DNA from: Branchiostoma floridae
Taxonomy: Eukaryota > Chordata > Leptocardii > Amphioxiformes > Branchiostomatidae
Direction of reading: 5' to 3'
NCBI RefSeq assembly: GCF_000003815.2
Contig: NC_049989.1
Coordinates: 14,040,637-14,104,636, forward strand
Length of the DNA stretch: 64,000 bases
The notes below the pieces were generated by a model, which saw only the letters and a program-made list of their open reading frames with translations, searched no databases and was not told the DNA's origin. The position numbers and the translations under genes are program-made. This document shows positions 989 through 62,344 of the stretch, piece by piece (positions within the stretch are counted from its first letter, which is position 1; every line of letters starts with the position of its first letter).

Positions 989-1115
989 CTTTGCCATGAT
1001 TAAGAGGTTGTGAAGAACTTGATACCCATCCCCATACAGGCCCCTTTACGGTGTGTTTACATTAGCTATACTGTGTTTACTTAAAGCCTCAGAACACAAC
1101 AAAAGAAAAACGTAC

Positions 1116-9100: not shown

Positions 9101-9196
9101 GCTGGCATTCTACAAGATTGATTATAATAGGACCATGTTAGTTACTTTTCAGGTTTTTATCCATTTTCAAAGAGTGGTAAAGAATCGTACAATGTC
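6123..9196. other. Intergenic region with scattered repeats
   Basis: Only short ORFs without recognisable domains. A single terminal-repeat fragment (CAGCAAG..TTTTATGGATGACATC) at about 8668-8700 belongs to the family of the element at 14723-15239. About 6940-7050 shares GATAACGGGGA/GCGAAAAGCG words with the hairpin at 4440. The tail of gene 2 ends at 9197, so the upper edge may hold its 3' UTR. Confidence 0.45.
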
Positions 9197-12100: not shown

Positions 12101-13179
12101 TGGCTCAAGACTAGTAGAAAACTGCTCCCCGTCCCCCCACGCGATTTGCATAGCAGACAGACGTGAATGGGAGCGCGACTGTAGATCCCCCGTGATGATT
12201 TCTTTAAGGTTTTCTCTATAATCGGTTACAAGAGCTTCTTCTCCTGTTAGGAAAACCACCCGCCTGAGGATGTCCGACAAGTGATACCCTTCGGCCAGGG
12301 AAACGTCTATCTGCTGGAACTTGGCCATTTCGGCAGGGGTCTGTATAAGGCTAACGGGAGGTTTGGTCTTAGTCTGGTCTCTTCCGAATGGAGTCTTACT
12401 CGCCCAAGGCATGAAACCATCGAAAGCAAACCCACGAGGCGTGGCAGAGTCAAAGAACCAGTCTTTCACTGGATCCTCCGATAGAAAATCGTTAAGTGAA
12501 GGGATAGCCATGGCTGGGAGGATGGTCTCTCCGAGGTTGATGACTTTCAGGTGTAGGTAGTGCGTGAGGTTGATGAAGTACCGCCGTGTGTCGTCATTGT
12601 CTTTGCCTTCCTCAATCAGAATGGCGAACTCCAGGTCAGAGTAGGGTGTGACCAGTTCTGTTGCCTGTGAACCCAATCCGATGAAAGCGTACTTACATGG
12701 AGGAGGACCAACTGTGGCGATGCATTCATCAATGAGGTCTTGGATAAACCCCTGTCTATCTTTGGCGATGTTCTTACATAAATTCTTAACTGCTTCAGCT
12801 CTCTCAGCCTCGACTTTTATCATGACTGGATCATCCTCGTCATATTGGTACGGATTATGTTGTTGATCAATGGCGTCTAGCTGTGACTTAGCGCGACTAC
12901 GCATCTCTTCTAGCCGCTTCTTATGACGAATGGCCGCATCAGAGCAACTCGGGCGGGCTTCCACATTTGCCGTGTAATGGAGGAACCATTGTTCTACGTC
13001 CTGCAGTATTTTTGTCATACTGTGTTTATTTCCGTCTGATCTGGCTATAGCTGCGTTGTACAGAGCTGCTGCCTGTGTGAATTTTCCACATTCTTTTGTT
13101 GTTTTGCCACGCTGGACGTAGACGTCACCTAGTCTACACAGACAGATGGCCTCTTTCCATCGATCGGGTTTGTTAGGAT
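9197..13179 (-). CDS. Nucleotidyltransferase-like + TPR array protein (gene 2), large terminal exon with in-frame TGA
   Basis: The acceptor CATACAG precedes 13179, and the leading AT joins the G left by 13792-13892 to give Asp (LIH-D-PNKPDRWKEAICLC). Counting from the Met at 13018, residues about 110-135 read GLGSQATELVTPYSDLEFAI. This is the GS...D-x-E nucleotidyltransferase signature of the GlnD/DUF294 type (GS 116-117, D128, E130). From about residue 490 there are roughly 18 TPRs of 42 residues (GDNTAHPDIA..NNLG..W..LGDQEKAISYYEQAL), the kinesin-light-chain/nephrocystin-3 style, nearly identical at DNA level. The TGA at 10606-10604 replaces the expected Gly codon of a TPR, and the frame continues unbroken to 9197. 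One TPR before it (about 11400) also lacks a residue. With its other lesions the gene may be decaying; an assembly error is possible. Confidence 0.8.
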
Positions 13180-13791
13180 CTGTATGGACATGAAGTATAT
13201 ATCTTTAGTCTCTTAATGGGCAGTTCTCCTTTTATACTTTTATGCTCATTTTGTTGTTTTAACGTTTTATCATACGGAGAATGTAACATATAACAACTAT
13301 TCAAATGAAGACATTTATATGATAAATGAAACAATGCTAAAATTTGCTACTTCTAAAATTATTGATTTGGTCTTTGTCAATACAGCTTTCTATCAAATGA
13401 CATTATTTTTACAGAAGAGCGTCAATTTTATTAAAGTGAAAGACCTCTACTGCACATTGATGGGGAGGGGCTACTAAGGTTTTTTTCTGAAGCCAGTCAT
13501 TGTGACATTTGGCCAATTTTTTCCAGTGGTACAAGAGGAGTGTTTATTTTTCAAATCTGAAATTGTGACTTACATTACCCTTGGTGAAACAGTGTTACTT
13601 TACGTTTTATGGGACCTACCTACAGCCTGTGTTAGGGTCTGTGGGTTCAGAGGTCAGAGTTGCTTTGGTTTGAACAGCTGAGTCGAAGCCGTGCTTTTTG
13701 CACAAACGGTAAGTAGATATTTTAGCTGCTAGCTTTAGTAGATATTTGGAGGCCCCTCCCCTGACATTACCGTAACAATAAAGTGACGTAC

Positions 13792-19929: not shown

Positions 19930-20037
19930 ATCTTTAGCTAACATTAATCTTCATTTAGCAAGTCCTTTAGCAACTCAACCCCCAACATTTCATATCTATC
20001 TTCATCATAAACAATACAATCAAATGGGAATGATTAC

Positions 20038-20751
20038 CAAGTTATTTTCCGTCTTCTGTCTTTCTTGCCTGATTCTTGCCGTGTACAGTAAGCGGTGAAT
20101 GAGTGCCACTGTGCCTTGAAACTCCTCACACCGTGACAGTGCAGCGTTGTACAGAGCAGTGGCCTTGGTCAAACATGTCGCGTCTTTACTTTCTGTTCCT
20201 CTTTTCAGGTACACGTCGCCGAGACATTTTATCGCTTCCGTCTCTAACATAGTGTCACCGTTTATGATCCCTTCTATCACTATCTTGGTATATTCAACCA
20301 GTAATAAAGTCTCATTGTTTCCATCAACAGTCAACCGTTGGTCCAGGTGTAGTAGCCTCTCTGCTATGGCGAGCGAAGACATTTTCATGTCGTCAGTAAG
20401 GGGTTCAGAACGACTCGAAGCGGTTGGTATTGATCGCTTCCCTAATCTTAAATTTTCTGCATAGTGGTAGCGATATTCAAGACTTTCTCCCACATCTGCG
20501 TCCTCACACCGGATCAGTGCGGTCCTGTACAGTACCATAGCCCTGTCAAACTTCTCTGGGCTCTTTTCGAGTCTCCCCTTTTCCAAGTTCACGTCACCCA
20601 GAGTTTTGAGCACCTCCACTTCCACACACCTGTCCATGTTCGCCATGGCGTCCAGCAGGGCACGGAGGTAGTCTGTCTCCGTACGGACTAGTCCCAGTCT
20701 CTTACTCTTGACGTCCACCTCGCGAAGTTCTTTACAGACTCGCAACATCAT
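20038..20751 (-). CDS. TPR-family gene 2, first coding exon
   Basis: ATG at 20751; the protein begins MMLRVCKELREVDVKSKRLG and has the same two TPR-like hairpins as 1116-1808 (LKTLGDVNLEKGR, CLGDVYLKRGTESK). The ancestral donor seen in gene 1 (CAGAAG|GTACGT) reads CAGAAGACGG here, so it is lost. The next plausible donor is AACTTG|GTAATC after 20038, which ends in phase 0 and does not fit the phase needed at 13892. The exon is otherwise intact at 238 codons. The gene is therefore either joined by an unseen small exon or is non-functional in this haplotype. Confidence 0.72.
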
Positions 20752-22298
20752 GGATAGTTGGGCACCACGGAAAACCTCGTCAAGACCTTAGAAATAGTTA
20801 AGACTCACAAAAGTACCAACACAACCTCACAGACTGAAAGCTGTTACACCACCATTCTTCCGTGATTTTCAAGTGTCCAGGTTTGAGTTCATATTACTCA
20901 TAATCTGCTGTGGAATGACATTAAATACTTATAGAAATATATACAGCTTAATGAGTATCACCTTTCTCTAGTAAGACGCTGCGTGTTTGGGGATGGGTAA
21001 AAACTGATGAAATGGTTCACTTCCGCTTCCGCGTTGAAAGTGATGCGTCATTTGCCCTTTGACCTTTATGCAAATGAGGCAAATATCCACCGAATTAGAA
21101 ATAAAGAAGAGTAATACTTAAAACTTAGTGAAAGTCAGCAGCAGCCGGAGAGGTTTTATTTTCTGATCTTTGACTTGAGAGACTAGCGTGTTTCTATGGT
21201 AACCGTTGCTAAGGCAAAGATACTCCCATAGCAACGGGACGGCCTATAGTATTATACAGTCATTTAAAGTATGATAAATTCATAAGTCCATGAAACAGTT
21301 GAAATTCATGAATGAGGTAGCTGCAATGAATCTTTGATAAAAGTAAAATGTAACTAGATTTCATTCACCCATGATGCAATATCTTTTAAGCATCAGATTT
21401 CAGCAAAGTTGCCTATTAGTAAGATAACGCAAGATACATGCAACATAACTGGTTGCAATGTGTGTTCAAATGATATCACACGTGAAGAAAGTTCAAACCG
21501 ACAGTAGGGAGTTTATTTTCTGACCCTTGAAACTGTATTTCAACGACAATCATTGTTACGAAACAAATACCTTCATACCAACGAATGGCTTAGAGCCGTA
21601 TACATTACATTCTTTAGATCTACAGATCTGAAACAGATTTAATGTACCCACAAGGCTAGCAGTCTCACGACTAATTTACGAAAGGTAAAATTCGAAACTT
21701 AACTTTGGTGTAAGTAATGTTGTTGCCTTCTGAGCACATGTATCACACAAATGTAAATGTTGACATTGACATGAGCATAAATATCTCCCTGTATTTCCTT
21801 AGGTGTCTGTTATCAAGGCTAAGATCAACGAGACTCTGTCAATGCCTGCTGGGAAACTACAGTATGAATTTTACTTTTTTAACGGATTTTTACAATGCAA
21901 GGCCAGTTGACTACTTCTATGCAATGTACTAATTTTGATGGAATTTTACTGTGAACTACAGTATGAATTTTACTTTTTAAAGGATTTTTACAATGCAGGG
22001 CCAGTTGACTACTTCTATGCAATGTACTAATTTTGATGGAATTTTACTGTGAACTACAGTATGAATTTTACTTTTTAAAGGATTTTTACAATGCAGGGCC
22101 AGTTGACCACTTTTATGCTATGAACTAATTTTGATGGAATTTTGAAATTATTTTCCTAGCAGATAGCGGTGAGGCACGGACAACAGTATTCGGCAACATC
22201 ATTGTGAAAAAGTGTGAACTCTTTACCCCACAGAAGAACTACCCCAACAACAAATTCAATAAAATTTCAATAATAGAATATAATATGTAGCAAAATGT
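20752..22298. other. Promoter flank of gene 2 and spacer
   Basis: About 20760-21080 aligns with the 5' flank of gene 1. The remainder is AT-rich without a supported gene, apart from the 98-bp tandem repeat at 21853-22144. The last ~150 bases are likely the 3' UTR of the coiled-coil gene ending at 22299; no canonical AATAAA was found there on the minus strand. Confidence 0.5.
21853..22144. repeat. 98-bp tandem repeat, 3 copies
   Basis: Three head-to-tail units of about 98 bp begin ACTACAGTATGAATTTTACT, with only a few differences between units. The high identity implies recent duplication. It contains no gene. Confidence 0.9.
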
Positions 22299-39892: not shown

Positions 39893-39898
39893 TTTATT
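39893..39898 (-). terminator. Poly(A) signal AATAAA of the NB-ARC gene
   Basis: Canonical AATAAA on the minus strand, about 120 bases downstream of the stop codon at 40017-40019. Supports a transcript end near 39870. Confidence 0.7.
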
Positions 39899-40016: not shown

Positions 40017-43000
40017 TCATGGTTTTACTTTTTGCTTCTTACTTGTTCTAATGTCCTGTACATGTGTATAGTAACACAGGCCACTGGATTTGGTGTAGGC
40101 CAGGCTCCATTTCTCTTCCGTGTGTGTCACTCCGGTAACTCTATCATCTTTCTGCTCAAAGTGGAAATTTTCTCCCTCGTCAGAAAGAGGTACCTCAAAG
40201 AAACTTTTGACTATCTGTTTTGACTCTTCGCAGTTGTGGAAATGCTTGCCCCTCAAAGTGTCCAAACTGTTCATAAAGTTTTCAAGGCATCTCATATTGA
40301 GTCCCGTAGGGGTAAGTGAACAGTTCACATATTTTAACAGTTCCTGTAGTCTGTTCCACAACCAAAGAGCCTTCGGAAAATGACTCCTAGAATTAAAGAT
40401 ATATTTGAAGTAAGGACTTTTGAGTGAATAGTTTGCTTTATAAACAAAGGGGTTACCCACTATAGCCACACACGGCGAGATCTTATTGAGAATGCTTAAT
40501 TGACTTTCGGTAAAGTTATTGTTTGTTTCAAAACTTTCATGTTTAAGCTTTTTATATTTTACAAGTGTCATACTAAAATTATGTGTTAGCTCATGTATCA
40601 TTTCACACCATTCTTCCATGACTCTCCTACATATCGGCGACATGAGGTGTCTTATGTCACTAAGGAAACATGTATTTAGACCTGTCTTTACTTCATCAAT
40701 CACAGATTTGTCATATTCCGGATCCGTATACAGTGCCTCCTTGAAATGATTTACAAGTGCCCCTATCGTCTTTGCGAGTTTAGCAATGCTAGGGAGTTTT
40801 GAAGTATTTAGCCAACCTAAAAGTTTTTTGGCTTCAAAACTTGTGGCCTTTGAGGCCTTAAGTCGCTCTTTCAAAGATTCTATTTGGTGGTTGATGTTTG
40901 TAATGGATGACCGGGCCAGATGACAAGTATGACCTATTCTCTCCACTACCTGTATCGTATCGTGAAGCCCCTTCCACGTGCACCCTTTATAGTTATTTTT
41001 TATCAAAGCTAAAGGCTCTGATAGATCAGCACAATGATCTGTGGGTAGTGTCGAAGATTGCCCGTGTTTTGACCTCTGCCCTGTGGTCTGACCAGTAAGC
41101 TTGCCAAGCTGACGTGCCATGATTGTTGCTAGATACTTCAGGCTTACATCATTATGGAACGATAGGTATGATACTGGCAGATTGGAATCTTGTTGTGAAT
41201 TGATAAGTATGTCTGATTTTCTAAACTTGGCATCAATTCTGAACTTGGAGTTCTGTGTGCTAGTTAGAGACAAGACACTCTTCAGCACTCCTGGGTCCCC
41301 TAACAAATCGTGCCAATCTTCACGAGCAAATTCTAGGATATCAAACTCTTTACTCTCCCTGGGTAGTCCTAGCATCGCTTCAAAGTATCTGTTAGTACAC
41401 GTAGAGGTGTCCATGTAGCGGTAGTACATCTGCAGAACAATAGTGACTATCTTTATAGCTTTCTGTATGACACTTCTGTAATACTGCAGAAAGGCCACAA
41501 AGCGCTCCGTCGAACGGCAGCAAAGCAATGTTTTTATGTCTTTTGTGTCATCATGGCAATTAACTTCATCATCACACTGCTTTATAACCATGATTAGATC
41601 CTTCATCGATGGATGCTTAAGTCGGTCTTGTTGCGGAATGAGTATTTCTGCACCTGCTGTCAACGTTGACAACGCCATCCAAATGTCGTCTGGCTTTGCA
41701 ATTGGGTTTGGGTTTGGGCTTAAAAGCATATTTTGTACCATGTCAAGCGGCTCTTCATCAATATATGATGGCACAAGCCAGACAAATGACGTAAGAAGCC
41801 TGGAGTAATTAACTTCGTTAAGTTTGCCACTTTGAAGAAGTCTATTATAAAGGAAGAAAGACACACGTTTTAGTGACGCCATGACCTGGTTGATTTCACA
41901 GGAGGTCGATTGCAAATCGATGTCAGGTAGGTCTATGTATACCATGTATCCCATTACCCTGAACAGGCTATCCGCTATGTTTACCAGTAAACTAACAGCT
42001 TCTTTGCCATTAGACGGACAAGACAGTAGAGTGCTCCTAAGAGAGTTTACATAATCAAGAATGTGACAGGACAGATCCTGAGTTGAATGCTGTCTGCGAA
42101 GTAGGAGCGCCTGGCCATGGAAGAAAAGGAACGCCTCATCACATTCACCCCATCGGCAAAAAAACCCAGCGGACTTTCTCATGAAATTGTATGTACCATT
42201 GATGGAAAGGTTTGTTTGGTACTTGTCGACATTCAAGGCCAGATAATGCAGGTGATTAGTTAGGATTTCTGCCTGCACCCTGGAGGTGTCATTGCTAAGT
42301 AACATTGTTGAATATTTGAAAGCGTTCTCCAAATGTGCGAGTCTCAAGGTTTCGTTCATTTCTGCTACAACAACTTCCTGTACTATTCTGTGCACACTAA
42401 AAGCACAAGGCTGAAAGGCATGGCATCGAGAGGCCAGGGAAAATCTCTCTAGGTTTGCGACCGTTTCCATCATATCTAATTTTTCAAGTTGCGTTGGGAT
42501 AGCAAAAAGCTTTGCAAAGTTTTTGCTGTAAGGTTTGGGACAAGGGATACAGTCTGGGCCCATAAATGATGTCATGTTCAAAAGTACAGCGGCGCTAGGA
42601 GACAGCTGGCGCAGAGTGTAATCTAATGTGTGGCGAATGTTCCTGTTTGCAACCTGTTCGATATCCATTTTATCCAGCAAGTCTCTCAGACAACGGCGTT
42701 AGCTCTGGTGTATTTGTCATGATATTCTTTGATAGAGCAGCCGGTTGTTTCAATGTATGCATACGCCAGCTGTAGGGCCAATGGGTGATGGCCGAGCGAT
42801 CTGCCTAGACTCTCCACCCATCTACGGTCATCTTTACCGCTAGATCTGACTGTTTTGTTAAACAATGCCTGGGCCTCAGTATCGCTGAACGGAGGGAGAC
42901 TGACCACTGAAATACGCTCCTTATCAAGTCTTAGGTTTTCCTGGGAGGTCAAAAGAATATGCATTGTCTCTGTGATGCTGTGGGGAAGTAGGGACTCCAA

Positions 43001-43398
43001 CTCTTTCATGGTTTCTCTGACTGCCCCATCAACTACTAGCAACCAATATCGTGACTTTGTCAGGTACTTTCTAAACTGTATTGTTACAGACTTACAGCTC
43101 ATTTTATCACTAGAGTGTACAGATTCTTCCCTGGTTAGACTAACGTAAGAGCTGTAGTGACTGATACTAGCACACAGGTCGCCCTTACTCGCTAACCTGA
43201 CCCAGAACACCCCACCAGGGTACCTCTCCGCACGCCTGTGTCCGTACTCAATAGCCAATGATGTCTTCCCGACTCCGCCCAACCCTCTGATGAGACAGGT
43301 CCGGTTCTGTTCAAGACACGCGTCGATCTTGCCGAAGACATCTTCTCGTCCCACGAAAGTCTTCATACGGCGAGGAAAGAAAACCATGAAGGGTGTGT
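40017..43398 (-). CDS. NB-ARC (STAND) NTPase with helical C-terminal region; one-base frame break
   Basis: The acceptor CTGTTTCAG precedes 43398; the exon begins AC, completing an Asp codon with a G from a phase-1 exon, then TPFMVFFPRRMKTFVGRED. Counting from Met 43387: P-loop GLGGVGKTS 35-43, Walker B YWLLVVD 114-120, LLTSQ sensor-like motif 145-149, GHHPLAL 199-205, the NB-ARC order of Apaf-1, NLR-like and plant R proteins. The frame ends in TGA at 42688-42686, and a frame offset by one base continues at once (LLDKMDIEQVANRNIRHTL) for about 880 codons through a winged-helix-like part (FSVHRIVQEVV) and an all-helical region to the stop at 40017. The offset equals one missing base: a mutation or an assembly error. 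The upstream effector exon is inferred to be the CARD exons at 45435-46249. Confidence 0.8.
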
Positions 43399-43790
43399 CT
43401 GAAACAGATTCATGTCTTTATATTACTGGTGTAATGAAAGGAATGCAATCTGGTCACCAGATGCATTGTGTAATAGCTTAACCGAACACTGGGCGATAGT
43501 GCACCCACTAACACGCTTGTCCGAACACTGATATTCTACACTCGAGTACTCGCTCACAGCAGTCGCAGCCTTGCATCCCTTTCCCACTAGAGGCTGAGAC
43601 CAACAATTTTACAAATAGTTCAACGAATATGATAGCTAAAGGACTATTTGTTTGGGATTTGGTCATTTTGTTGTGTTTTTATCATACTTTACATCAAATT
43701 CCAATTATGAAATCAAAGATCAAAGCAATCGAAATTTGGTTGCTGTACAGTCGCTCAGAGATCGCGCTTTAGTGAACTTTACTTTAGAAC

Positions 43791-43796
43791 TTTATT
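43791..43796 (-). terminator. Poly(A) signal AATAAA after the transmembrane exon
   Basis: Minus-strand AATAAA about 105 bases past the stop codon of the 43899-44194 exon and about 390 bases before the NB-ARC exon. It makes the transmembrane exon a complete terminal exon and supports alternative polyadenylation at this locus. Confidence 0.65.
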
Positions 43797-43898
43797 TCAC
43801 GACAACTGTAAAGGACACAATGCGTGGCAACTTGCACATACAAAATGTACAATACATACAGAACAATTTAACTACATGACTTGCTAATGTCTAAAAAT

Positions 43899-46249
43899 CT
43901 AAGAAACTAATCTATCTTTCGAATGGTAATAGTACTGTATCATATACATAATCAGGCTAGCGTTATGTGCTGCTTCAGGACAGTATGATATTGTCTCGTT
44001 TTTAAAGGAGTTGTATATAAATTGACCGACATAGATGAGATGGTCTAAACAATATGTGGCTAAATCGTCGTCTTCGGGATACTCACCGTTCATTCCGTCA
44101 GTGTAGTAAACAGTGACTATCCAAGCACAGATCATCAAGGTTGTGAGGAGCATACTAACGGCACCTAGTCGTTTCATGGACCACTTTGTGACATCTGCAA
44201 AACATACAAGTAAAGAACCGTCCATAAAGTTTATACAAAATCATTAATGAAGGTCGTGACCTTCTTAATGGTAATACCCCTGTCACATAACGCGCAAAAT
44301 CGAGCGGACGACGATTCTGCGAGCTCTAAATGACATGAGTAAGACGTCCGGTGTTCTGACGATCATTTCGCGATTTTTCGGGATCGCCGGCGATTTTCAG
44401 GGGTTGAACGATGGTCGCGGTGCAGCGAAACATGTTTTTAACAAGTCGCCGGTTATCTCTGAGTTCGCAGAGCTCGTTACCAAGTCGCCTGCAGATCGTG
44501 CAAATCGGATGGCGAACGCCCGTCAGTCGGGTGACGTTCGCCTGACATACGCTCGACTTACGTTTGTTTGCAAATATTGAATTTCTTTAAATGTGAGAGT
44601 AATTCTGACATTGTGGTCCCTGTGGTAGCATGTAGTCTGACTTTGTGACACACTTTCTTTTCTTTCGTCATTTCTATTATGCCCGCGCATTCCATTACTT
44701 GGTTAAAAAGATTCCGACAACAAAAGAATAAACATTGATTGATCTCTTGCCTTATTGTGAGGAACGTTTCGTGTTACCTTGTCCGCGTGTAAGAGGTCAT
44801 GGGAGTTTAATTATCAAAGATTTATTTACTGGCGATCGCACGAGCCTCGCTTATATGTGACAGGGACAGTTTTTGGGCGAACAATACGCAAGACGCTCTG
44901 AAGATCATAAAATTTGCCGACCTTCCAGCAATCGCGAAGTACGTCCGAAGATCGCACATTATGTGACAGGGGTATAAAGACCATTCAACCATTTAATGGT
45001 TTAATCGTCGCCGTACAAACAAATCTTACTATGGAGAAGGTAAAGAAACTAGGTTTCGTCATCAGCCTAGTCCAGCCTTCGACAGGGTTACAGAGTAAAG
45101 AGTCTTTGATCTGTTTGGATAGCAAACATCACATATGAAAGAGTCATACGACATCGTGCTTCAAGGTCCGGCTACAACGTACAGAAGAGGTCGTCGGCTT
45201 TCAAATATTTACTGGTAGCAAACAGAACAATTGGGGTGGTGAAACTATCTTACCCCTACACACAGTCATCGGTCTTTGATACCAAACAGAAACAAGCGTA
45301 TAAAGAGAGCAAAGATTTTAAAACATAATGTGGTATTGAGGGGACACAAAAGGAGACATGTCATAAACAGTCTTAGAATTTAACAACAAATGATCAGCAA
45401 ATGTACTGCAAACAAGCAAGGAAATGTAAACCACCTTGTGGCCACCGTCCAAGATCTTTCTTTCTTTTCTCTCCTCTCCTCACAGCTGTGTGAAGACGTG
45501 TCCGACTCTCTAGTAGCTGACTGACAAGGTGACGGTATGGAACTTCCCTCAAGCTTTCAACAAAGTCGTCAAAAGCGTCATACGGTAATTCTGTAACATT
45601 TAAAGTTGCAATGTTTGCTAATGGCACGCACAGTTTTTGAGCATTGAAAATATCGATGAATACAAATTCCAACTTCAAATTCTTAAACAAGAACTATGAC
45701 AGACATTTTATTATCTTTCTAACACATACATATATTTTTGTAGCTTTCAAGAATATGGTGATATAGTATATACTAATACTATATACTAGTATATTGACAT
45801 CTTTACATACATAAGCGTATTAAAAAAATTTGGGTGCACCTGTGCACCAACAGAAAAATTGTGTACACAGCTCCAATTACAGGTGCGCCTGGGTACACAA
45901 ACACCTAGTATTTCGAGCCCTGGTGGCGGTTGAAATTACCGAGTACGGCAGATTTTTAACAGGTACGGCAGAAATTACCGGTCACGAAAGTCCGATAAGT
46001 GTTTAAGATTACAGTTGATTTTTCATGTAGCTTGAAAATTGTTCGAAAGTTTCTGTTCGTACCCAACAGTTTGTCCAGTAGCGCCCTGGCGCCGCAGTGT
46101 GGCCCCTCTGTTCTCGCCTTGGCCCGGATGAACCCCGGGTCTCCGTCCCTCCAGTGGACCGTGCTGTACCGCAGGGCTTGTACCGGGTCCATGTCACGGC
46201 TAATGTCGTCATAGCAGTCCAGGATAACTTGTCGGTGTAGCGGATCCAT
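43899..46249 (-). CDS. CARD-transmembrane protein (short isoform or separate gene)
   Basis: Three exons: 46249-46063, 45590-45435 and 44194-43899 (stop TAG). All junctions are phase 1 and match. The G left at 46063 plus AA gives Glu; the G at 45435 plus AT gives Asp. Predicted length is 212 residues. Residues 1 to about 95 form a CARD-like death fold (HRQVILDCYDDI, ARALLDKLL-E-LPYDAF, FVESLREVPYRHLVSQLLES), with RIG-I/MDA5-type spacing. A basic linker follows (RRGEKRKK), then a TM helix LGAVSMLLTTLMICAWIVTV at about 124-145 and a 67-residue tail with two N-glycosylation sequons and paired Cys. CARD plus TM resembles MAVS in outline, but here the TM is not at the extreme C terminus. The start at 46249 (GCCGCTATGG) is chosen because upstream codons lack ATG. 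Confidence 0.7.
44275..44974. mobile_element. TAA-flanked MITE in the CARD gene intron
   Basis: Inverted ends TACCCCTGTCACATAA, flanked by TAA (44272-44274 and 44975-44977). A 3-bp TAA target is Harbinger-like. The interior is rich in TCGCG words; the ORF at 44335-44580 is part of the repeat. Same family as 30954-31175. Confidence 0.8.
45435..45590 (-). CDS. CARD exon 2 (helices 5-6 and basic linker)
   Basis: Acceptor AATGTTACAG; the exon completes the CARD fold (YDAFDDFVESLREVPYRHLV) and ends at CCACAAG|GTGGTT in phase 1. The leftover G joins equally well to the transmembrane exon at 44194 (giving DVTKW) and to the NB-ARC exon at 43398 (giving DTPFM), so it is the likely branch point for two isoforms. 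Confidence 0.75.
46063..46249 (-). CDS. CARD exon 1 (helices 1-4)
   Basis: 62 codons from MDPLHRQVILDCYDD to RALLDKLL, ending at the donor TTGG|GTACGA. The CARD core pattern is visible: a polar first helix, RYSTV, then IRAKARTEGPHCGARALLDK, similar in layout to the IQAE..KGP..A segment of RIG-I CARDs. The upstream flank has a CRE. Confidence 0.75.
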
Positions 46250-46307
46250 AGCGGCTACAAACTGTGAACGTAAGTAACTTTCTTCCGGGTATTCTGGCAA
46301 CTTTCGA

Positions 46308-46315
46308 TGACGTCA
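46308..46315. promoter_or_regulatory. Palindromic CRE (TGACGTCA)
   Basis: A perfect TGACGTCA 59 bases upstream of the CARD start codon. Position and sequence suit CREB/ATF binding. The same octamer is in both coiled-coil promoters. Chance occurrence cannot be excluded. Confidence 0.45.
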
Positions 46316-46685
46316 CTGTCCAAATTAGTCCCCAGCAAAAGAAAAGAACAAACACACAAGATGAAGACATTCCTCTGTGCAAATCTAATAATGGCGCAAC
46401 TTTGGCAGCTCCAAGGTGGATTGGACAGCGAATAGATTGTATCCGATGATTTGGTTGTTTAGAAAATCAAAACTTTCGTCGATTATTCGGGCGTAGGGAG
46501 ACACTTGTCTTGAGTGAAGCGGTCGGTGCGGATGGATTTGTAAAGGTTAAAGGTGGGTAGGCTTGGTTTCGGGTAGTATTTTTCTGCCGTTCTATTTGAC
46601 CTGGTTGGCGTTGCTTAATTATATGTTTGTCACAAATTTATCCCCTCAATGGTTTAAGTTTTTCTTTTTTTACTCAGATATAATG

Positions 46686-47341
46686 CAAGTATACAAAAGT
46701 AACGGGTTCCGCACTGGTGTTCCAGTGCTGAATCAATGGGTCGAATCGGCCTCAGCACTGGTTTTCCAGTGCTGAAGAAACGTCAGCACTGGGTTTTTTT
46801 TTACAAAGAATAGGTAGTTACAGGTGGATGACACATTCTGTTTGTGCGGCAAAGTAACATCGTTTAAAAAACAATAGGTAGTCAGAGTTAGACAACTAAC
46901 AGTTGGTCTATCGGTGTGGTAAAGAGATCGCTTTTTTTTTACAAAGAATAGGTAGTTACAGGTGGACGACACATTCTGCTTGTGCGGCAAAGAAGCATCA
47001 TTTAAAAAACATTGTATAATACAGTTGTCCATTTATATTTTGTTACAGAATGTAAGTTCTTTTCACCAACTTTATACATTTTATACTCGGTTTCCAGTGC
47101 AGAATATTTGTCAGCACTGGATTTCCAGAGCTGAAATGTCCTCAGCACTGGAAATCCAGTGCTGATTGTAGTCTCAGCACTCGGTTTCCAGTGCTGACAG
47201 GAGGGCTTTGAGTGGTGAAGCTGCCTCAGCACTGGATTTCCAGTGCTGACGCCGGCTCAGCACTGGACTTCCAGTGCTGACGACCACTTCAGCACTGGTG
47301 TTCCAGTGCTGACAGAGGAGACCGTTACTTTTGTATATTTG
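46686..47341. mobile_element. Hairpin-array foldback element, short copy with 11-bp target duplication
   Basis: Ends CAAGTATACAAAAGTAACGG and the inverse of CAAATATACAAAAGTAACGG (19/20 match), with CAGATATAATG repeated exactly at 46675-46685 and 47342-47352. An 11-bp duplication is in the range of Mutator-type transposition. The inside holds about eight 22-bp palindromes of the type CAGCACTGGATTTCCAGTGCTG, mostly in 47120-47315, and a ~80-bp direct repeat (about 46790-46868 and 46927-47011). No protein is encoded. Confidence 0.85.
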
Positions 47342-48439
47342 CAGATATAATGAACTTTTTTGCATAACTAGCGGTTTGGATGTAGAAATGTAGGGGATTT
47401 GCCCAGCTCGTTTAAAAATCTTAGCACAGATTCAGTCCACAACCAGTCGACTGTAAGCCAGAAAATACGGAGAAGGGGGAGCTGACAATTATTTTATAAC
47501 CATACCCAAACTCCAATCAGGGAAAACACCGCACCAAAGCTAAAAAGTGTAAAGGAGCCCTGAAGAATTGTGACTTTCTCTCCTGACCCTACCACCCAGG
47601 GATTACGTTATATGCTGTACTGAACATGTATATGGTTTGGGAAAAGACCCTATGTTTATGCATGGTGCAGGGACATGATCGTGAGTGGGTTATGTTACAG
47701 TTTTACAAACCCTATACACGTATACAAAATAAAACGCTTACCAACAAGCTTTCGATCAGTCCTCTGATCCTTATCAGGTTGCTGCAAGTATGTAATATAT
47801 TTAAACCGTCGATAATTGCTGAAAATGTGGTAAAAGCATAAAACTTGCTGACTCTTGATTGTATACTAGACATTTTCATGTATACATGTGGTACAAACAT
47901 AGGAAACATACAGGTTATGTAGGTACAGATAATGAACAGTGGTTGAATTTACCAATTAAGGGACTAATTCAAAAGCTAGCGTTGGCTTTATCTATTTAGT
48001 TCCGATGTGTAACTAAATGTAATCCTGCTTGAAATCATACAAAACTTATACTTATACAATGGTAGGCTGTAATATGTCTATCTAGTACTTAGATATCATA
48101 GGGCATTTTAATCAGTATGATCTGTTCTTGTTTGATCCATTGTTTATTCATGTGAAGCTCAAATCGGCCTACAGGTCGCTTTTCATTGAGGCCATGAGGG
48201 AAGACAAACTATATAACAGATATGCAGTTTACGTCATTTAAAATCCCTACATACAGTCTATACACATATTTTACGCATACGTATACATGGTCCACCAACT
48301 CGCAACTTTGGCTGAAGACAGACGGAGGTGGAAAACGTATGCCGATTGCATTAATGGCCCTGAGGTGAGGTATACGTGGTCAAAATACGGAAGAGAGATA
48401 TGGAACATGATTCAATTCCGTTTGTTTGGATCGTTTCTG

Positions 48440-51245
48440 TTACTTAAAGAGTTTCTTAAAGGAAGCTAAAGTTGGGCGGTCCTTCTTCCCGACCCTCAAA
48501 TTCTCTACCTGAAAGAGAACAATAATGCAAAATGAAGACTGAATATAGATCTAAGACGTTTTACAGCGTTTGTCGTGTAATATTGACTATATTACAACGT
48601 TTAACGACAACCATTAGCAGTCATTTTACGTAATGAGTTATTCACATTCCTCGAATCAAGTACAACAGATTTTAAGAGACTCAATGCTACAGGCAGATTT
48701 GATTATATATTCAGACGTGACAACTCCCACAATGCTAAAATAGGTAAATATATGAAAGATTGCTTTGTCATAAGAAAAAATGCCGAAACTCATAATTAGC
48801 CCCACTCGATTGTAGTACAATGTTTTAGGCTAGCTCTCATTGTTTTACAAATAAGGATGTCAAATTTCATTCTATATGCACAATCTGCATATGTACTATG
48901 TTTTATACTTGCTTTAGTAATTAGGGTGATAAGTTTGTTTCTTCTTTTTTTCTGCCATACATTGTACCGTGTACGATCGTTGCGCAATAAAGTTCTTCTT
49001 GTATATCCTAAATGCAGGTACGATGTGGGAGTAGGTCTTAGTTATGGTTTAGTTCCCAATCGGATAAAGGGGCCCTGTCCGGCAGTTGACGGGCTGTTTT
49101 TGACACAGTTTATGGGGTGACCACTTTGGTGGGGCACTTTGCGGCCCCCGGGATAATTTTGGGCCCGGCCGGGCACCGGGTTGAATTTAAGGTGGACTCG
49201 AAATGACCCGAGACCCGATAATTAAAAAAACGCCCTGACCTACCCGTGGTAAAACCTAGGGGACGCAGCCCCCCCCCCCCCCCCCGAGCTTTAGAGTGCT
49301 GTATTCAAGTATTGTCAGTAAATTTTGCACAACGAAAAAGGATCGGAAGCAAGTCGTACCTCGTCTCGGAACTTGGCTGCCTCGCTTCTACTGCAAGCCA
49401 GCTCCTCCTAAGCCGCGTGAAAACAAACATTTGCTTCAGAATAAAATCTTACCTCATTTTATTAATGTTTTTGTGACAATTTTAGACATACTCTGTAAAC
49501 CAATCTACTGTATAGCAACATACAATGTCCAGCTCTAAAATGGATATTTGCACTTTCTTACTATGTGACCATGAAATTTTGTTGATCTCTGACGTTCATA
49601 TAGCACTTACAGTAAGTGGTTATACTTTATATCTTTTAGGCAAACGTGTGAGTTACTGCAGGGATAGAGTTTGCTACACAGTTTGTTACGGTGCCTCTAG
49701 ACGACCATGTCGGCATCACGTAGCGTAACGGTAGTATGTGTAGCTCACAGCTGCGCATATCGGCATCACGTAGCGTAACGGCAGTATGTGTAGCTCACAG
49801 CTGCGCATATCGGCATCACGTAGCGTAACGGCAGTATGTGTAGCTCACAGTTCGGACCTCCTGAATTCAAGCCCCCTGATATGCTCCGACGGTGTGCCCT
49901 TGGTAAATGGACTCATCGTTATTCGAATGGACATTATATGGAGGTCCCGTGTTTGAGGGAAGTAAAACTCCGAGGACGGAAAGTAACCCACCACACTTAT
50001 CGAAAAGAGTAGGGTCCCATTCCGTTAAAAACCTTGTGCGTTACGCCATAAGGCAATACAGAAATGATCTTTTTTAAGCCAATGATATTGTTTCAGCCTA
50101 CCTTGGTCTGGCTCAACATGCTCTCCTTCATGGTTGCTTCCTGATCTTTTTCTGCCACTATTTTGGCCAGCGCCTGTGAACATTCAGCGATACTACGATT
50201 GGTCAAAGAATGATAGTGTTTAATGATTGTCAGGACAACGTACGTCAACGTTGTTTGCTGTTTTCTAGAACTTGTTTTTCACCACCTTTGATAAATGTAT
50301 CTGTCGTTAGCTACCCTACATGTCCAGGTGCTATGTGCTTCTGATATACATTTGTACGACAAGTGTAAATAGTTGTCAAATTTATGAGCTTGCAATGAGT
50401 GATTTTCGCAAGCTCATTTATTGGTACTCACATGTGACATCACTTCCTGTGCGACATTGCCATATTGGTACTCACATGTGACATCACTTCCTGTACGACA
50501 TTCCCATAATGGTACTCACATGTGACATCACTTCCTGCACGACATTGCCATATTGGTACTCACATGTGACATCACTTCCTGTACCACATTGCCATTTTGG
50601 TACTCACATGTGACATCATTTCCTGCACGACATTGCCATATTGGTACTTACATGTGACATCACTTCCTGTACGACAATGCCACATTAGTACTCACATATG
50701 ACATCACTTCCTGTACGACATTGTCATATTGTTACTCACATGTGACATCACTTCCTGTACGACATTGCCATATTGGTACTCACACGTGACATCACTTCCT
50801 GTACGACATTCCCATAATGGTACTCACACATGACATCACTTCCTGCACGACATTGCCATATTGGTACTCACATGTGACATCACTACCTGTACGACATTGC
50901 CATATTGGTACTCACATGTGACATCACTTCCTGTACGACATTCCCATAATGGTACTCACATGTGACATCACTTCCTGCACCACAATGCCATATTGGTACT
51001 CACATGTGACATCACTTCCTGCACGACTCTGCCATATTGGTACTCACATGTGACATCATTTCCTGCACGACACTGCCATATTGGTACTCACATGTGACAT
51101 CACTTCCTGCACGACACTGCAAGCATCACCCTTCATTTTCGCCTCTCTGGCTTCCTGGAAAATAAGCAAACACTCGTTGTTACTTTGCTTGATTATCCTC
51201 CTTTATCTATTCTCACGATAACGTGTGTGAGAGAGGGGCAGACAA

Positions 51246-51300
<55 letters not shown>

Positions 51301-54300
51301 CACACACACACACATCAAATACGGCATAAAACGGACATAAGATATAAACATAATGCGAGGGAATTATCATCACTATGTACATCAAAGTCATCCCAGGTAG
51401 TGTTTCTGTATCCAATTTATTACCCGAAGGTATCAAATACACGTACTTGGTCACGTTCAAAGTTGAATAGGAAAGGTGTGTTACCTTTATTATGGTGACT
51501 ACGATTTCTTACTATAACAACAATGATACTCACCTCCTCCGTCTTGTCATGGAGGCTCTTCAGGGAACTGATCATCTTTCGATGGGAAAAGAAAATAGCA
51601 CATACTGTGTACATACTGTATTGTCATGTACAATGTGATCTAGGTCGTTAATATTGTATATTTTCGAATTTCTAAATGAACAGTCCGAATGCAGATAAAT
51701 TTTTAAAACATTTGGATCGTTGTATATTTTGACACTCAAAAGTTTCTGGTATCATGATTTGGTATTTACGTTATGTGTTGTGTGGCGTACGGCGGATTCC
51801 TTTATGTTGAAATATAGCGAGTGAGAAACATGTTGCCATCACCGTATAGTTGTGCAGGTTAGATAATAACAGTGGATCCAATGCAGTAACCATGCCTGTA
51901 GTTGATGTAGTTGTTAACTTGGTAAGTGATACCAGTTTTTCACACTAGTGTCACTTTGGGCACCTCTTAAATACAGATATAAAGGACTTGTTGGTTGTGA
52001 TACAATGTTTAGTCTGTATGTGTGTTTTCTGTAATGAATGGCATTGTAAATGTGCTGATGTATAAAATGTTTGTCAGGAACTACTCACCATCTGCTGATC
52101 TAAAGCCTCTCGCCTCATCTTCTCGTTATTCTGATGCTGTGGAGGAGAAAGATTTCATTTAAGATTTAACTAATCCAATGTGGTATTCTATTTCCACCTC
52201 CTTTAAGTCACCTTTTTATCTTTTTCTCTTTTCTTCGGTCTTTCCTTGCTTTACCCCACGTGAAAGTAGCATTTCTGATAAAAGTTGTGGGTTCAAATCA
52301 ACCTTGAAAACTGTTAAACGTTGCTGGTGATACAGTATACCACTCAATAAGATTAACATGCATTGGCATAATACCGGCCATAAGACTTATACCGGCCGAT
52401 AAAAAATAATGCAATTTAAAGAGATCTACACATGCAACAATAGTTATTTCTGAGGTATGCACACTTCAGACATCCAGGTGTCCAATACATCATTTACAAA
52501 GCATCGATTACAATGCATTCGAAGACAACAAGGCGAAAAGTTTTCAGTATCTTTTTCGGGACAGGCAGCTCGTCGTGGGCCGAACACACCGTCACATTCA
52601 TTGCCAGATTTGTAGATCATAATTACACATGCTCACGGCACAAGACGAACATGATTCAACAGCAATCTTGAATTTCTGTTGGTGACCTACAACTCATGTA
52701 AAAGTGTGAAGAACCGTTGCATAATAGCCCGGATCTACGACTGAATGGGCAAAATTGAACGTACGCAGCCATTTTCCCGCCATGTTTATATCTACGCTAG
52801 CAGTAGAGTGTTACGTCATAGCGGTTGTGAGGCACAAAAGTTAAATGAAAATTCTTGTCAGTATACGTCCGTTTTCTCATGACATTTTGTATGCTCATGC
52901 AGGTTTATGTTTTATGCATTTACTAACAGAAAATGAAGGAACATGCATATGGAGGATGTATAAAGGTACATAGCGACAGTTAATTGTGCCGTGTTTCTTC
53001 CGGCCGGTATTTTGTAACCCCTCTCAACCACGCGCTCGTTCACCGTGTAATTCCGCGGCGTGTTACAATTACGATATTACGCTTTTAACAAGACAAGAGT
53101 GGCAGAAAAGTTACACAGAAGAAGTGGCAAGGGTAAGCTATAACAGCAACATGTAACTGGAGAAAATGATGCGTTGACAATTTGTCAAATCAGTATGGCT
53201 AGAGAAATCGTCGTAGACGTGCCGGTATTATGATAATAAAGGGTAAATGCCCCGGCCCGAGGTGTATATGGTGAGATAATCCCCTGGTCAGGTGCGATAA
53301 CCACCGAATAAACCACCCAGTGAGCGTAGCGAACGAGGTGGTTTATGAGGTGGTTATCGCCCCCGACCGGGGTATTATGCCCCATAAACCCCCGGGGGAA
53401 GGGGCGCCCCTTTAACGNNNNNNNNNNNNNNNNNNNNNNNNNNNNNNNNNNNNNNNNNNNNNNNNNNNNNNNNNNNNNNNNNNNNNNNNNNNNNNNNNNN
53501 NNNNNNNNNNNNNNNNNACTAGGCGGTGGAACTGGACCATTACAATGGACTTGGTCCCCATGTAACTCTAACATGGACTGCACACTGTACAAAGCATTCC
53601 TTTCTGCTGGGACAAGTGTGTTGCTATTTAATCCTAAGTTATAGTTGTACATATTCAATAAATTTGAAGGAATGTGAACAGTAATAATGTTTGGATTCAG
53701 GCCAGGCAGGTGGGTATCGCTCCCCTGATTGGTCGGCGCCTGGCTATATGATAATAGATGTTAAAGCATTTCGCAGAGAAATCCTCCGGCCACAGACGAA
53801 CTTTGGGAAGACGTATTCCGTACCAATGTATTCAAACGTATATGTGCTATGTGTAAACTGTGCTTGAGCACGAATAAGGCAAATATGTCACAGTTTAACT
53901 TCTGACGGAGCTTGTGCACAAAGGAATTGAACACTCCAAAAGCATTACTAGTAACAAAACAGAGAAATTAGACGTCCAGTGAACACCTGGACTTTCAACC
54001 CTATAAGGGAAATAAGATAGATCATGGGCATCGTATGGATAGAGTAGATAGGGATCAGTAACACGGATGCGTACAATCCCTGTAATGTTTTACAAAAGGT
54101 GAACCACAACATTCATATTGCAATTGCGGTTGATGGCTTGGAAGATTACTATAGCCACGGGTGGGATTTCACCCCCTAAAAATAGTTTGTATAGATCAGT
54201 ACTCACCAACACACGGACGCAATCCTTTAGATGGCTGTTGGTACTGCGCATCCTAAGGAACTCCTGCCTCATGTTGGCAACTGTCATGAATTCATCTAAA

Positions 54301-57843: not shown

Positions 57844-60800
57844 TCAAGAAGCTTGGAGGTTGTAGCACAATGAAGTGACGCTTCTGTTTTCTCCTTGTGG
57901 TTTCTTTCGTTTAGGATAAGGGATATCTGTTCTTGAGTTCTCAGTCCCTTGACTCCTACTAGCTGTTGCCGGCGTTGTTGTCTCCATACCATAGGCGCCT
58001 GACATGGTAGCTTGTCCGTACGGCGTGATGATATCGTCTTCGTTCTGATGATCCGGTATGACATCATACTGATGATCCGGTTGGGGCTGGTCTTCCACAG
58101 TCTCGTAGGTATGATGGGAGAACTGGTCGGCGCCATGTTGGTTTTCCGTATGACAGTCGCTCGAATTCTCTTGAGATTTCTTGAATATATTTTTACATAA
58201 AACAAGAGCGATGAAACAAGACAAGGCAACAACTGATGATGTCAAAAGTGCAGTTATGACCAGGTCCAAAGGATTGATTGAAACGTTGTTCATGTCTGAG
58301 TTCAGGAGAAACACTACATGGTGTTTACCTTCATCAGCTTCTGTCAATGTTTCTGTACCCGAGGTAGGAAACTCAGTGACACTGACGTTAGGACCAGTGC
58401 TGAACGTTGACACTTTATAATGAGCTGAAACATTCAACGCTTCGTCTGAAGGAAACAGTACGGTACAAGACACGACATCGCCACGCCATTTTTGCATGAT
58501 AATTTCACTGACCGTTAGAACAGAGATAGTCTTTCCCACATAGTTACAGGTACTGTTTGACAGTGTTGAACGATTAGCGTACAGTGTTTCTGAGTGGCAA
58601 CATGTGAATCCGTCAGGGTCCATGTACAAGGATGTCGTAATGTTGACGTCACCATGATTGACGTGTGTTCCAAACGACACGTCTGTGATGACGACATCAT
58701 TTCCGTCTGGCAGAGTCCACTTGATGTGGGGAGGTTCTACTTCCCAACATACCTCACAACGTAAGGTCCGGGCACCATCCAAGGAACTGATGGTAAGTCT
58801 TGGAGCGGGGCACTGCAGCGATGCTACCATGGTGCTTGTAAACTCGCACAAATGCCTACCTTGGAGAACTCCTGGATAGCTGCACGTCAAAAGCCTCAAA
58901 TCCGTTGACTGAGAATGACAAGATTTCATCAACCACCTGAGAGCGCACGTGCAGCGAAGGGGGTTTCCTACCACTCGTAGTTTAACAAACTTCCACATGT
59001 CGAAGCTGAAATCTTCAATTTTCAGTTGATTCTCTTGTAGACTTGCGATCCAGTTATCCGAAAGATCGATGTCACCGATGCGAGGAGTAAACCTGAAAGC
59101 GCCCGGTTCGATGTACTGAATCTCATTCTGGGCCAGGTCCAAAGTGCTGAGTAATCTTTCCTCTTGTATGACCGGGAACCAAGTTGCTCTTACCGCCTTG
59201 ATTTTGTTACCAGCGAGACGCAGCACTCGAAGGCGGTGAAGGGTATCAAAACTACCTGAAATGATAATGGATTGTCGAAATATAAACATTCATACATGTT
59301 GTGTTTGACGTAATATTAGTAAAGTCATCACAGCCAATTAACTAAAAATGAAACACTATGTCAGGAAACCTTATTGATTATTTACGGGTTCGGCTGTGAT
59401 AGATATCTGTATCTCATTTTTATAGATGTACACGTGTATAACCGCCCTTGGGCGTAACACACCAGCTTCTCGGGCACGCGGAGCGGCAGCAGCTGGTTAT
59501 ATATTACACTGAAAGACCTGTCACATCTTACTACGTATACAACATACAGCTAGGTCTAGCCAAAGGGAACGGGAACGATGCTCAAGGTACAACAAAACAA
59601 GTACATGTACATCTATAATAAAAATATCAAATATTTTATTGAGAGAGTTCAGAGTTTGAGGATGGCCGGGTAAGGTTTAATTGTATACCAGTATACGTTA
59701 TAGTACAATAAGGAAATATTTGGTTACTAGTGTTGTATGTGCATTATCATCCAACTTTGGACGTACCTGTTTCCACGGTGTGAATCCTGTTGTACCGTAG
59801 ATCCAAGAACGCCAGCTCACACAGATGTCTGAAGTAGCCAGGTTTGATGGCGGTCAGTTTGTTCCACGGTAGATGTAAGGCGACAATGTCCAGACAGCGG
59901 TCACTGGTGCCAAACGCCTCGTCCTCTATGTATGCTATCTCGTTGTGAGACAAACTCAGATGGCCACAAACTGTTTTGAACCACCGTTTTCCAACATAGG
60001 ACAACTTGTTGTGACTCAGTGACAGGTTGTACAGCAAACGGAACCCATCAAATGTGTTGTTGTCGAGATGTAGAATTTCACCTATAATAAGACATGAAAC
60101 GATCACGTTATGGCAGTGGTAACTGAAGCATGCTGGCAAAAGATTTCTGTGTTCTTTTTGCTTTTTTGTCTAATTTTCTCATATATACCTCGACACTCTA
60201 TCTGTAACCTTTACATTAGGTCATTGTGGCCATGTGACAATCGCCAGTTCGCCACGTATCATTGATGCCTCCTAGCGGTCCGTATCATTTTTGCAGCTAT
60301 TTAGTCCTTTCCTGCAATAATTTCATGAACTGCTAGGAGGCAATTTTGATCTATGAGATGTAGAATGTCACCTAAGCCAAGAAAACGATGAAATGCTTAC
60401 GGCAGTGGTGACTGAAGTATGCTGGTGAAATATTTGTACCTTGTGATTAGAATGAGTCAATGCGAGCCTAGCTAAACATTAAACTAATTTCTTAATTGCA
60501 AAAGTAACATTAAAGTCTTGGTATTACAGGAAAGAGGATGTTAACAAAAACTACCAGTCAGTAGTACCAATCCATGGTACCATCAGTAGTTGATAACTTG
60601 TTAAAGATTAGGCCATGTTGATTTGATGATATGGATGACATCCGTAAGCGCATTAATTTTCATCGTCGTACAAAGTAGCTTTAAAGGGAGCACATATAAG
60701 TTTAAAATTTAATAAAAAATCCTAAAACGGATTCATAGAATGAACTTCCAAGGTTTAAGAAAAAGATATGATAGAATCAAAATGAAAAATCCATTGTTCA

Positions 60801-61754
60801 GCATGCCATACTCTGTGTGTTTCGTCATTTATTCAACCTTCCTAACCACCTAGATTTCAAAATGAAGGCAACTTTTTTGACCAAACTTTTTTTATTCCCA
60901 CGCTCACATCAGTTATGGGGTTCCCAGAGAATGGCATCCATATAGTCAAATCGACACGACCTAATAGATATTATCTAGATAAAAAGGGACAGATGCATGT
61001 GATTTACTGCCATATAATTGCATCACTATACATTTTGACCTTCTTTGGTTAGCATACCATGATGGTTAAATTCTAGTTTGTATTTGTCATACTATAACCG
61101 TAGTTTAGCTGCATATAATGTCAAGACAAAATGACCAATAAACTGGTGGACGTACCGACTGATAAGTATCTAATGCCAGCTCAAAAAAGAACAAGGAATA
61201 GTTACCAACCTAGAATTGATGTGTTTAGAAATTCACATTTTTAAAGAACTATCGTAGAGTGGAATTTGTTATCACCAAACACAGTAAGGGCATCTTCGGG
61301 ACGGTGGATAGTTTTAAAGAACACTTGCAGATAGATGTGCAAAAACTAGGTGTGACAAGTCGTTTGGTGTAATATAACCACTGCGAAGCTCGTGTGTTAC
61401 GCTGAATGGCTATAATATAGATACAGATACAAATATATTACCTGGTTCTATGTAGAGTTTCCGTAGATGTTTAAGGTGGTTGACGTCAGACGAAGTCAGG
61501 TTACCGAGCCGGTAGTTTCGGAGCCACAACGCGGAGGTTCTCTCCAAAAGCGGGCAGGATGGAATCTTGTCCCGGCCACTTTTCTCCAGCGTGGCGTCGC
61601 AGATAACACACATCTCTCCAGACGATACCTCCTGAACACTGTCCGGATGACATGGTAGTGCGTGAAGCGATGTACACGTTGGGCACTTATCAACGAAACA
61701 TGACGCGCTTCTCATTGAGACCAAAAGGGCAATCAGCAAGACGATCTGCACCAT
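57844..61754 (-). CDS. LRR-Ig transmembrane receptor with ITAM-like tail
   Basis: Three exons, 61754-61442, 60081-59767 and 59255-57844, all phase-1 joins, total 679 residues. Signal peptide MVQIVLLIALLVSMRSASC, then a Cys-rich LRRNT-like region (CPTCTSLHALPC). About seven LRRs follow (ILHLDNNTFDGF, LYNLSLSHNKL, LVALHLPWNKL type, FLDLRYNRI, LRLAGNKI, TLDLAQNEI, IDLSDNWI). An LRRCT follows (GNPLRCTCALRWLMKSC), then an Ig-like domain (TLRCEVCWEVEPPHIKW to VVSCTVLF) with several N-glycosylation sequons. The TM is at about 539-563 (VITALLTSSVVALSCFIALV). The cytoplasmic tail carries YETV-x9-YDVI near residues 593-609 and further Tyr sites. A cell-surface recognition receptor of the lancelet LRRIG type is likely; the ligand is unknown. 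Confidence 0.85.
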
Positions 61755-62344
61755 TTTTTAACGATTTCTCTGTAAATTCGCACAAAAGAAAATTTTCGAG
61801 GGAGTTGCCTTTCTTACGTGCGCTTCTATGAAATACTTACTGGAGGTATGCATGGTGCGCAGACAATTGTGTTTTTTGATGTTCCATCCTCCTACGCAGG
61901 GACATCCAAACCGCCTGTCAAGCGAGGAGCTTAAAAACTACATAAAGTCATGCAATCACCACCCACAGGCTGAATACAACAATACACACCGCCTCAACAC
62001 GCCGCACACACGAAAGCATTTGTGATCATATTGCTGTCAGATGAAAGTAGAATTGCCCAATAACCTAAGGCAAGGATGTTGTGTTGTTACATGCATTTAT
62101 GTAACTGTGTCAGAATGGATCTAAATTGTCTGACCGGTCCCGGAAACAAAAAACCGCACATCCGATTGACGCTCTCTGTGCTTGGATGTACCTATGAATA
62201 AGTTTATCAAGCTAGCAAATTAAAATATATTTTTCAGTATCTCATTTTACATTTCATGTCATTTATTGTCTATCATATAAAACCTTGTGTATGTTTTTTA
62301 ATGATGGAAATTTCATTAAACCAATGGTCTAACGGCAGTCTAAC
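61755..62344. other. 5' flank of the LRR-Ig gene
   Basis: Upstream flank of the receptor gene. No recognisable core promoter motif or further exon is seen. Confidence 0.4.

Follow-up and report, generated by a model that had tools for sequence, protein, structure and literature searches.

A transmembrane exon between CARD and NB-ARC exons in an amphioxus gene family, read as part of a candidate single-pass receptor

What protein is encoded where the exons of a CARD are followed on the same strand by both a transmembrane (TM) exon and a long NB-ARC exon? This question is raised by a locus on the minus strand of a 64,000-nucleotide stretch of the Branchiostoma floridae genome (contig NC_049989.1, positions 14,040,637 to 14,104,636; hereafter the window, in whose own numbering all positions are given). 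A sequence-only reading had proposed that one CARD is shared by two alternative C termini, a MAVS-like membrane tail and an NB-ARC NTPase. We consider the best reading to be that CARD, TM helix and NB-ARC are joined in one protein, rather than divided between alternative C termini. The product would comprise, in order, an N-terminal RIG-I-type CARD, a short basic linker, the TM helix, an NB-ARC STAND ATPase, a DUF7779 domain and a long C-terminal region. With modestly better than even confidence, we propose that one gene encodes this single-pass protein, with the NB-ARC beyond the membrane, the CARD in the cytosol and signalling by CARD clustering.

The gene model begins with CARD exon 1 (46249-46063; 187 nt, made up of 62 codons and a leftover G that precedes a phase-1 intron) and CARD exon 2 (45590-45435; 156 nt, phase 1-1), and these exons and phases are the same as those found in the earlier reading. 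The leftover G fits both downstream acceptors, at 44194 for the TM exon and at 43398 for the NB-ARC exon, as had been claimed, and every junction is phase 1. Also present are the stop in the TM frame (43899-43901) and the AATAAA past it (43796-43791), which had been taken to end a short form. What had been overlooked is a 5′ splice site, GTGAGT at 44081..44086. This donor (ACG/GTGAGT at 44087/44086) is phase 1 and lies exactly 108 nt past the TM acceptor, and it delimits a 108-nt phase 1-1 cassette (44194-44087) with the peptide DVTKWSMKRLGAVSMLLTTLMICAWIVTVYYTDGMN. Scored with a weight matrix not trained on the amphioxus genome, it is the strongest donor in 46300-42600, the sole one there scoring 5 or more, and among all 8,373 GTs of the window, counting both strands, it ranks in the top 0.16%. 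The TM acceptor ranks in the top 1.0% of 7,497 AGs. The exon 2 donor of the window copy (top 4.6%) and its NB-ARC acceptor (top 22%) score lower, and an acceptor-like site at 42940, within the NB-ARC exon, outscores the TM acceptor (5.8 versus 4.5). Splicing of the CARD exons via the TM donor would give an in-frame CARD-TM-NB-ARC reading.

Direct splicing from exon 2 to the NB-ARC exon (45435 to 43398) would likewise be in frame, all junctions being phase 1, so that skipping of the TM exon preserves the frame. The TM exon might then be an alternative cassette, its inclusion yielding a membrane form and its skipping a soluble cytosolic CARD-NB-ARC protein. We regard this as rather unlikely: no acceptor or donor in the gene model is stronger than those of the TM exon, and with the weaker exon 2 donor and NB-ARC acceptor this favours inclusion. 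A CARD-only form, produced by reading through exon 2 to a stop at 45394-45396, was discarded; it offers just 12 open codons and nothing further in its support.

Is the TM exon terminal or internal? Past its donor, the frame stays open for 61 codons (43899..44086), for which the chance is about 0.04, and this tail is mildly coding-like, 3.7% of non-coding windows scoring as high. Because the tail is both open and mildly coding-like, the window by itself could not decide between the two. In the genome to which the window belongs (513.4 Mb, 431 contigs) there are 17 NB-ARC matches, of which 12, the window included, are close (68-100% identity); we fetched approximately 10 kb around each of the 11 other close copies (two share one stretch) and extended some of these regions. 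First, immediately upstream of the NB-ARC all 12 copies have a TM exon, 96-120 nt in length; it carries two stops in the copy designated L018 and has a weaker donor in L027. Searches with tblastn found it in seven other copies, making eight with the window, each with a phase-1 donor (GTGAGT in seven, GTAGGT in L022). A loose scan for phase 1-1 exons, combining splice sites with hydropathy, matched 10 of the 11 copies, newly adding L021a, L024 and L026; it gave two weaker extra matches in L025 and missed L018, the copy with two in-frame stops in the exon. A tightened scan, with cut-offs chosen after the results of the loose one, returned 10 matches in 368,000 nt of strand, and all 10 were these TM exons. 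Second, a phase-1 donor closes the TM exon in 12/12 copies, strong in 11 and weaker (GTCAGC) in L027, and every copy has a phase-1 NB-ARC acceptor. Third, nine of the 12 copies have CARD exon 1 and 11 have exon 2 (in L024 as two pieces out of register), no CARD having been found upstream of the L027 TM exon, and genome-wide matches to this CARD, the counts of which are lower bounds, fall inside the NB-ARC loci in 20 of 20 cases. Because the TM exon and its phase-1 donor precede the NB-ARC across the family, the most fitting reading is that the TM exon is internal to a single gene. The proposal of a single locus joining the CARD to a TM helix or an NB-ARC thus survives in part, in that CARD and NB-ARC share one gene, and its alternative terminal exon is not supported.

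The fate of the tail points in the same direction. In the three nearest copies it is deleted, stopped or frame-shifted throughout, being largely deleted in L018 and L020 and frame-shifted in L019; the window's AATAAA is missing at the matching place in all three, although other positions in their introns do have A[A/T]TAAA hexamers. A terminal TM exon, giving a MAVS-like CARD-TM adaptor with the NB-ARC as an alternative ending, would account for the open, mildly coding-like frame and for an AATAAA about 100 bases beyond its stop, but the donor retained in every copy and the broken tail make it improbable. The comparison corrects a tempting misreading, in which the chance continuation of an internal TM exon to a stop and an AATAAA is taken for a terminal exon.

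Could the CARD-TM part and the NB-ARC part instead belong to separate genes, the latter gene lying downstream and starting from a first exon of its own? In favour of this, ATGs occur within the NB-ARC exon, which begins 500 bases past the TM-frame stop. The sequence-only reading had itself named a separate NB-ARC first exon as one finding that would overturn it, and we found no donor scoring above 1.9 in 43900-43380. As the CARD matches all lie inside NB-ARC loci and the TM exon and NB-ARC are collinear in 12/12 copies, we consider two genes very improbable.

The NB-ARC exon of the window copy is not open throughout. Its first reading frame (42686..43398, entered by the phase-1 acceptor) carries the P-loop GLGGVGKT, which is shared by all seven aligned copies, and the remainder (40017..42698) encodes DUF7779 and an unassigned C-terminal region of approximately 780 residues, followed by an AATAAA at 39893..39898. 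The corresponding open reading frames (ORFs), 42686-43417 and 40017-42698, are in different frames, with the break at 42686..42698, where seven other copies are open across. The change of frame near 42690 is either an assembly error or a recent lesion, and unless it is the former, the product of the window copy may be truncated. Synonymous divergence between the window and L018 is 0.24 in the C-terminal part (40020-42698) and 0.055 in the NB-ARC part, a contrast that could reflect gene conversion of the NB-ARC end.

Which domains are these? The joined window CARD scores 26.9 bits against Pfam CARD_2, just under the cut-off of 28.2, and CARD_2 matches all nine joined family CARDs (best E 3.8e-8). 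A profile of these nine CARDs matches the N-terminal CARD of RIG-I (E 6e-6), which is the closest among solved structures. The window NB-ARC scores 25.1 bits (Pfam cut-off 23.5) and is followed by DUF7779, which we take to be a winged helix, at 37.2 bits (cut-off 27), as in a STAND ATPase. In three other copies scanned, one passes the NB-ARC cut-off and one the DUF7779 cut-off, and all match at E 0.004 or better. The best solved match to the NB-ARC is bacterial AfsR, and a PDB profile of three copies was credible for AfsR alone. Pfam and PDB searches gave nothing convincing for the C-terminal region of about 780 residues, and Pfam matched no LRR, WD40 or TPR repeats in the window ORF and three intact copies, although strongly diverged repeats could escape it. 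The C-terminal frame had no credible PADLOC or PDB match, and the NB-ARC frame had weak PADLOC matches (best E 0.001). No other death-fold domain was found by Pfam on the three minus-strand frames of 46250-53200, where two matches were sub-threshold (E 0.05 and 0.09), and no helicase was matched in the regions scanned. An AlphaFold2 model of the NB-ARC frame alone was unusable (pLDDT 41).

On which side of the membrane would the NB-ARC lie? A single helix between CARD and NB-ARC would place the two on opposite sides. Most likely, the helix acts as a signal anchor with its N terminus inside and its C terminus outside, leaving the CARD cytosolic and the NB-ARC facing the lumen or the cell exterior. 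In the 11 TM copies whose flanks were compared (L018 was left out, and L024 and L027 have a shorter N flank), the N flank has the greater net charge in nine; the two flanks are tied in L026, and the order is reversed in L027. Past the helix, N-x-S/T sequons number 103 in seven intact copies versus 57.4 expected (standard deviation 9.3), and none of 1000 column shuffles, which keep alignment columns whole, reached 103; N-x-T numbers 62 versus 23.2, and the reversed motif is at expectation (55 versus 56.9). The seven are the copies with an open NB-ARC exon (L021a up to its contig end); the window, L019, L020, L021b and L026, which are broken or gapped, are omitted. Every exon is open in L022, L023 and L025, and in L021a as far as its contig end. 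At least five of the seven rows share the sequon in seven columns, versus 1.06 such columns expected (0/400). The window's own C-terminal frame (40017..42698) has 11 sequons versus 6 reversed motifs. Elsewhere in the window, sequons are raised in an LRR-Ig frame (8 versus 5 reversed), and two TPR frames show the opposite (1 and 3 versus 7 and 5 reversed). The CARDs, with no sequon in 1,026 residues versus 0.8 expected, are uninformative.

Because sequons are enriched and conserved past the TM helix and the flank charge favours the CARD inside, the protein could be a type II receptor whose ectodomain is the NB-ARC part, and the chance that the NB-ARC part lies outside seems to us about even. 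Reverse insertion with the N terminus outside, or a re-entrant helix, would instead keep the NB-ARC in the cytosol, where NB-ARC ATPases reside in the well-studied cases, and would suit the tied charge of L026 and the reversed charge of L027. We consider this a shade more doubtful still than a terminal TM exon, since the N flank carries the higher charge in 9/11 copies, the sequons are enriched past the helix and reverse insertion would place the CARD outside. The same enrichment bears on the cassette: a soluble form would need no extracellular ATPase, but a purely cytosolic NB-ARC leaves the sequons unexplained, and the TM exon is retained in 12/12 copies. In favour of the cassette is L018 (96% identical in the NB-ARC), where the TM exon has two in-frame stops and the NB-ARC exon remains open for 1,113 residues from the motif. 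L018 is either a natural TM-less copy or one in early decay.

Has the TM helix been maintained? Ratios of nonsynonymous to synonymous substitution (dN/dS; NG86 method) were obtained for pairs drawn from at most nine of the 12 copies, with L021a, L024 and L027 unpaired. They are 0.13-0.39 for the NB-ARC (36 pairs), 0.10-0.41 for CARD exon 1 (28 pairs), 0.06-0.73 for CARD exon 2 (36 pairs, six saturated) and 0.25-0.74 for the TM exon in 27 of 28 pairs. The second NB-ARC frame of the window, from break to stop, gives 0.55 against L018. The 19-residue mean hydropathy of the TM exon is 1.96-2.72 in 11 copies. The TM exon thus maintains its frame (except in L018) and its hydropathy as its sequence changes, the pattern expected of a membrane helix.

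Several points weigh against the joined, outward-facing protein that we favour. The splicing was deduced from the DNA sequence alone, and the tail past the TM donor is itself open and mildly coding-like. The charge rule is broken by the tie in L026 and the reversal in L027, and one young TM pair has a dN/dS of 1.69 (seven changes). The NB-ARC exon of L018 stays open despite the stops in its TM exon. D-x-S/T motifs, too, are mildly raised in the family (77 versus 59.8; 47/1000 shuffles). Sequons are also slightly in excess in L031 and L032 (7 and 8 versus 4.6 and 5.1), two NB-ARC relatives that showed no TM, and are not in excess in the distant L034, where a TM exon is present (2 versus 2.3). 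Cysteine content, which we had considered as evidence of an ectodomain, fails to discriminate and was dropped: it is 2.8-3.2% in L031 and L032 and 2.9% in the family. Finally, an extracellular NB-ARC would be biochemically odd.

L034 (1689-6300), a distant relative on another contig (24% identity), has a window-like order, with a weak CARD match (E 0.002, below the cut-off), a 99-nt phase 1-1 TM exon with strong sites, and an NB-ARC frame. A comparable hydrophobic stretch, seen by hydrophobicity alone, precedes the NB-ARC in the neighbouring L033. Judged from these sequences, evolution may have produced or retained the CARD-TM-STAND layout on more than one occasion.

How does this architecture compare with known systems? 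Amphioxus is rich in CARD and NB-ARC genes (PMC2246300, PMC2575513), with 16 NB-ARC and 84 CARD domains counted for B. floridae in a table of PMC2246300. The amphioxus CARD-NB-ARC proteins of the Apaf-1/CED-4 type likewise have a CARD followed by an NB-ARC and are greatly expanded (PMC2246300), whereas the present family has no WD40 match, a TM helix between the two domains, a RIG-I-like CARD and an AfsR-like NB-ARC. NLR and Apaf-1 proteins proper have C-terminal LRR, WD40 or TPR repeats, which Pfam did not match here, and are cytosolic without a TM helix; here a TM exon is predicted in 12/12 copies and would set the family apart if included in the transcript. MAVS, including oyster CgMAVS, also combines a CARD with a TM helix (PMC5557890). 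However, the TM exon here is internal, and the helix is therefore not C-terminal as in MAVS: approximately 1,100 residues follow it in intact copies, in place of a C-terminal tail anchor, and the CARD-TM short form has no match to three patterns of TRAF-binding motifs. RIG-I shares the CARD type, but there is one CARD here and no helicase match. In sea cucumber, AjNLRC4 is a membrane-spanning STAND protein of a deuterostome, with Ig outside, NACHT inside, two TM helices and no CARD (PMC8699970). AjNLR-new, from the same group of animals, is closer in being a membrane protein with the STAND ATPase reported outside the cell and the signalling part inside, and differs in having NACHT, an Ig domain and two TM helices in place of NB-ARC, one TM helix and CARD (PMC13133943). 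No CARD-TM-NB-ARC protein was found in the titles or abstract openings listed, most subscription papers lying outside the search.

Other features surround the gene. An insert resembling a miniature inverted-repeat transposable element (44275..44974) sits in the intron that precedes the TM exon, downstream of CARD exon 2, and is bounded by perfect terminal inverted repeats of 16 bp. Palindromic units of the type TCAGCACTGGAAATCCAGTGCTGA form an array (46699-47297) a short distance upstream of CARD exon 1; an 80-bp stretch is directly repeated there, at 46794 and 46932. On the minus strand there are also TPR-repeat frames (1089-13204 and 20020-20787, with the frames 1089-1841 and 20020-20787 alike as judged by eye) and LRR and Ig-like membrane-protein frames (57844-61757, domains named by eye). 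A 100-N assembly gap lies at 53418-53517.

What would such a protein do? We speculate that binding of ligand, nucleotide or both outside would lead to oligomerisation of the NB-ARC, which in turn would cluster the cytosolic CARDs and recruit CARD partners. More tentatively, as a possibility that we hold with less than even confidence, chordates could have a family of NB-ARC receptors, at the cell surface or facing the lumen, in which a STAND ectodomain serves as an extracellular nucleotide- or ligand-driven oligomerisation switch that clusters a RIG-I-type cytosolic CARD. STAND ATPases are usually regarded as cytosolic switches. One comparable case, involving a NACHT domain, was reported in 2026 (PMC13133943). 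If our reading is true, a family with the NB-ARC beyond the membrane and the CARD inside would represent a receptor layout uniting Toll-like geometry with inflammasome parts, and the question would arise of which nucleotide the NB-ARC uses outside the cytosol.

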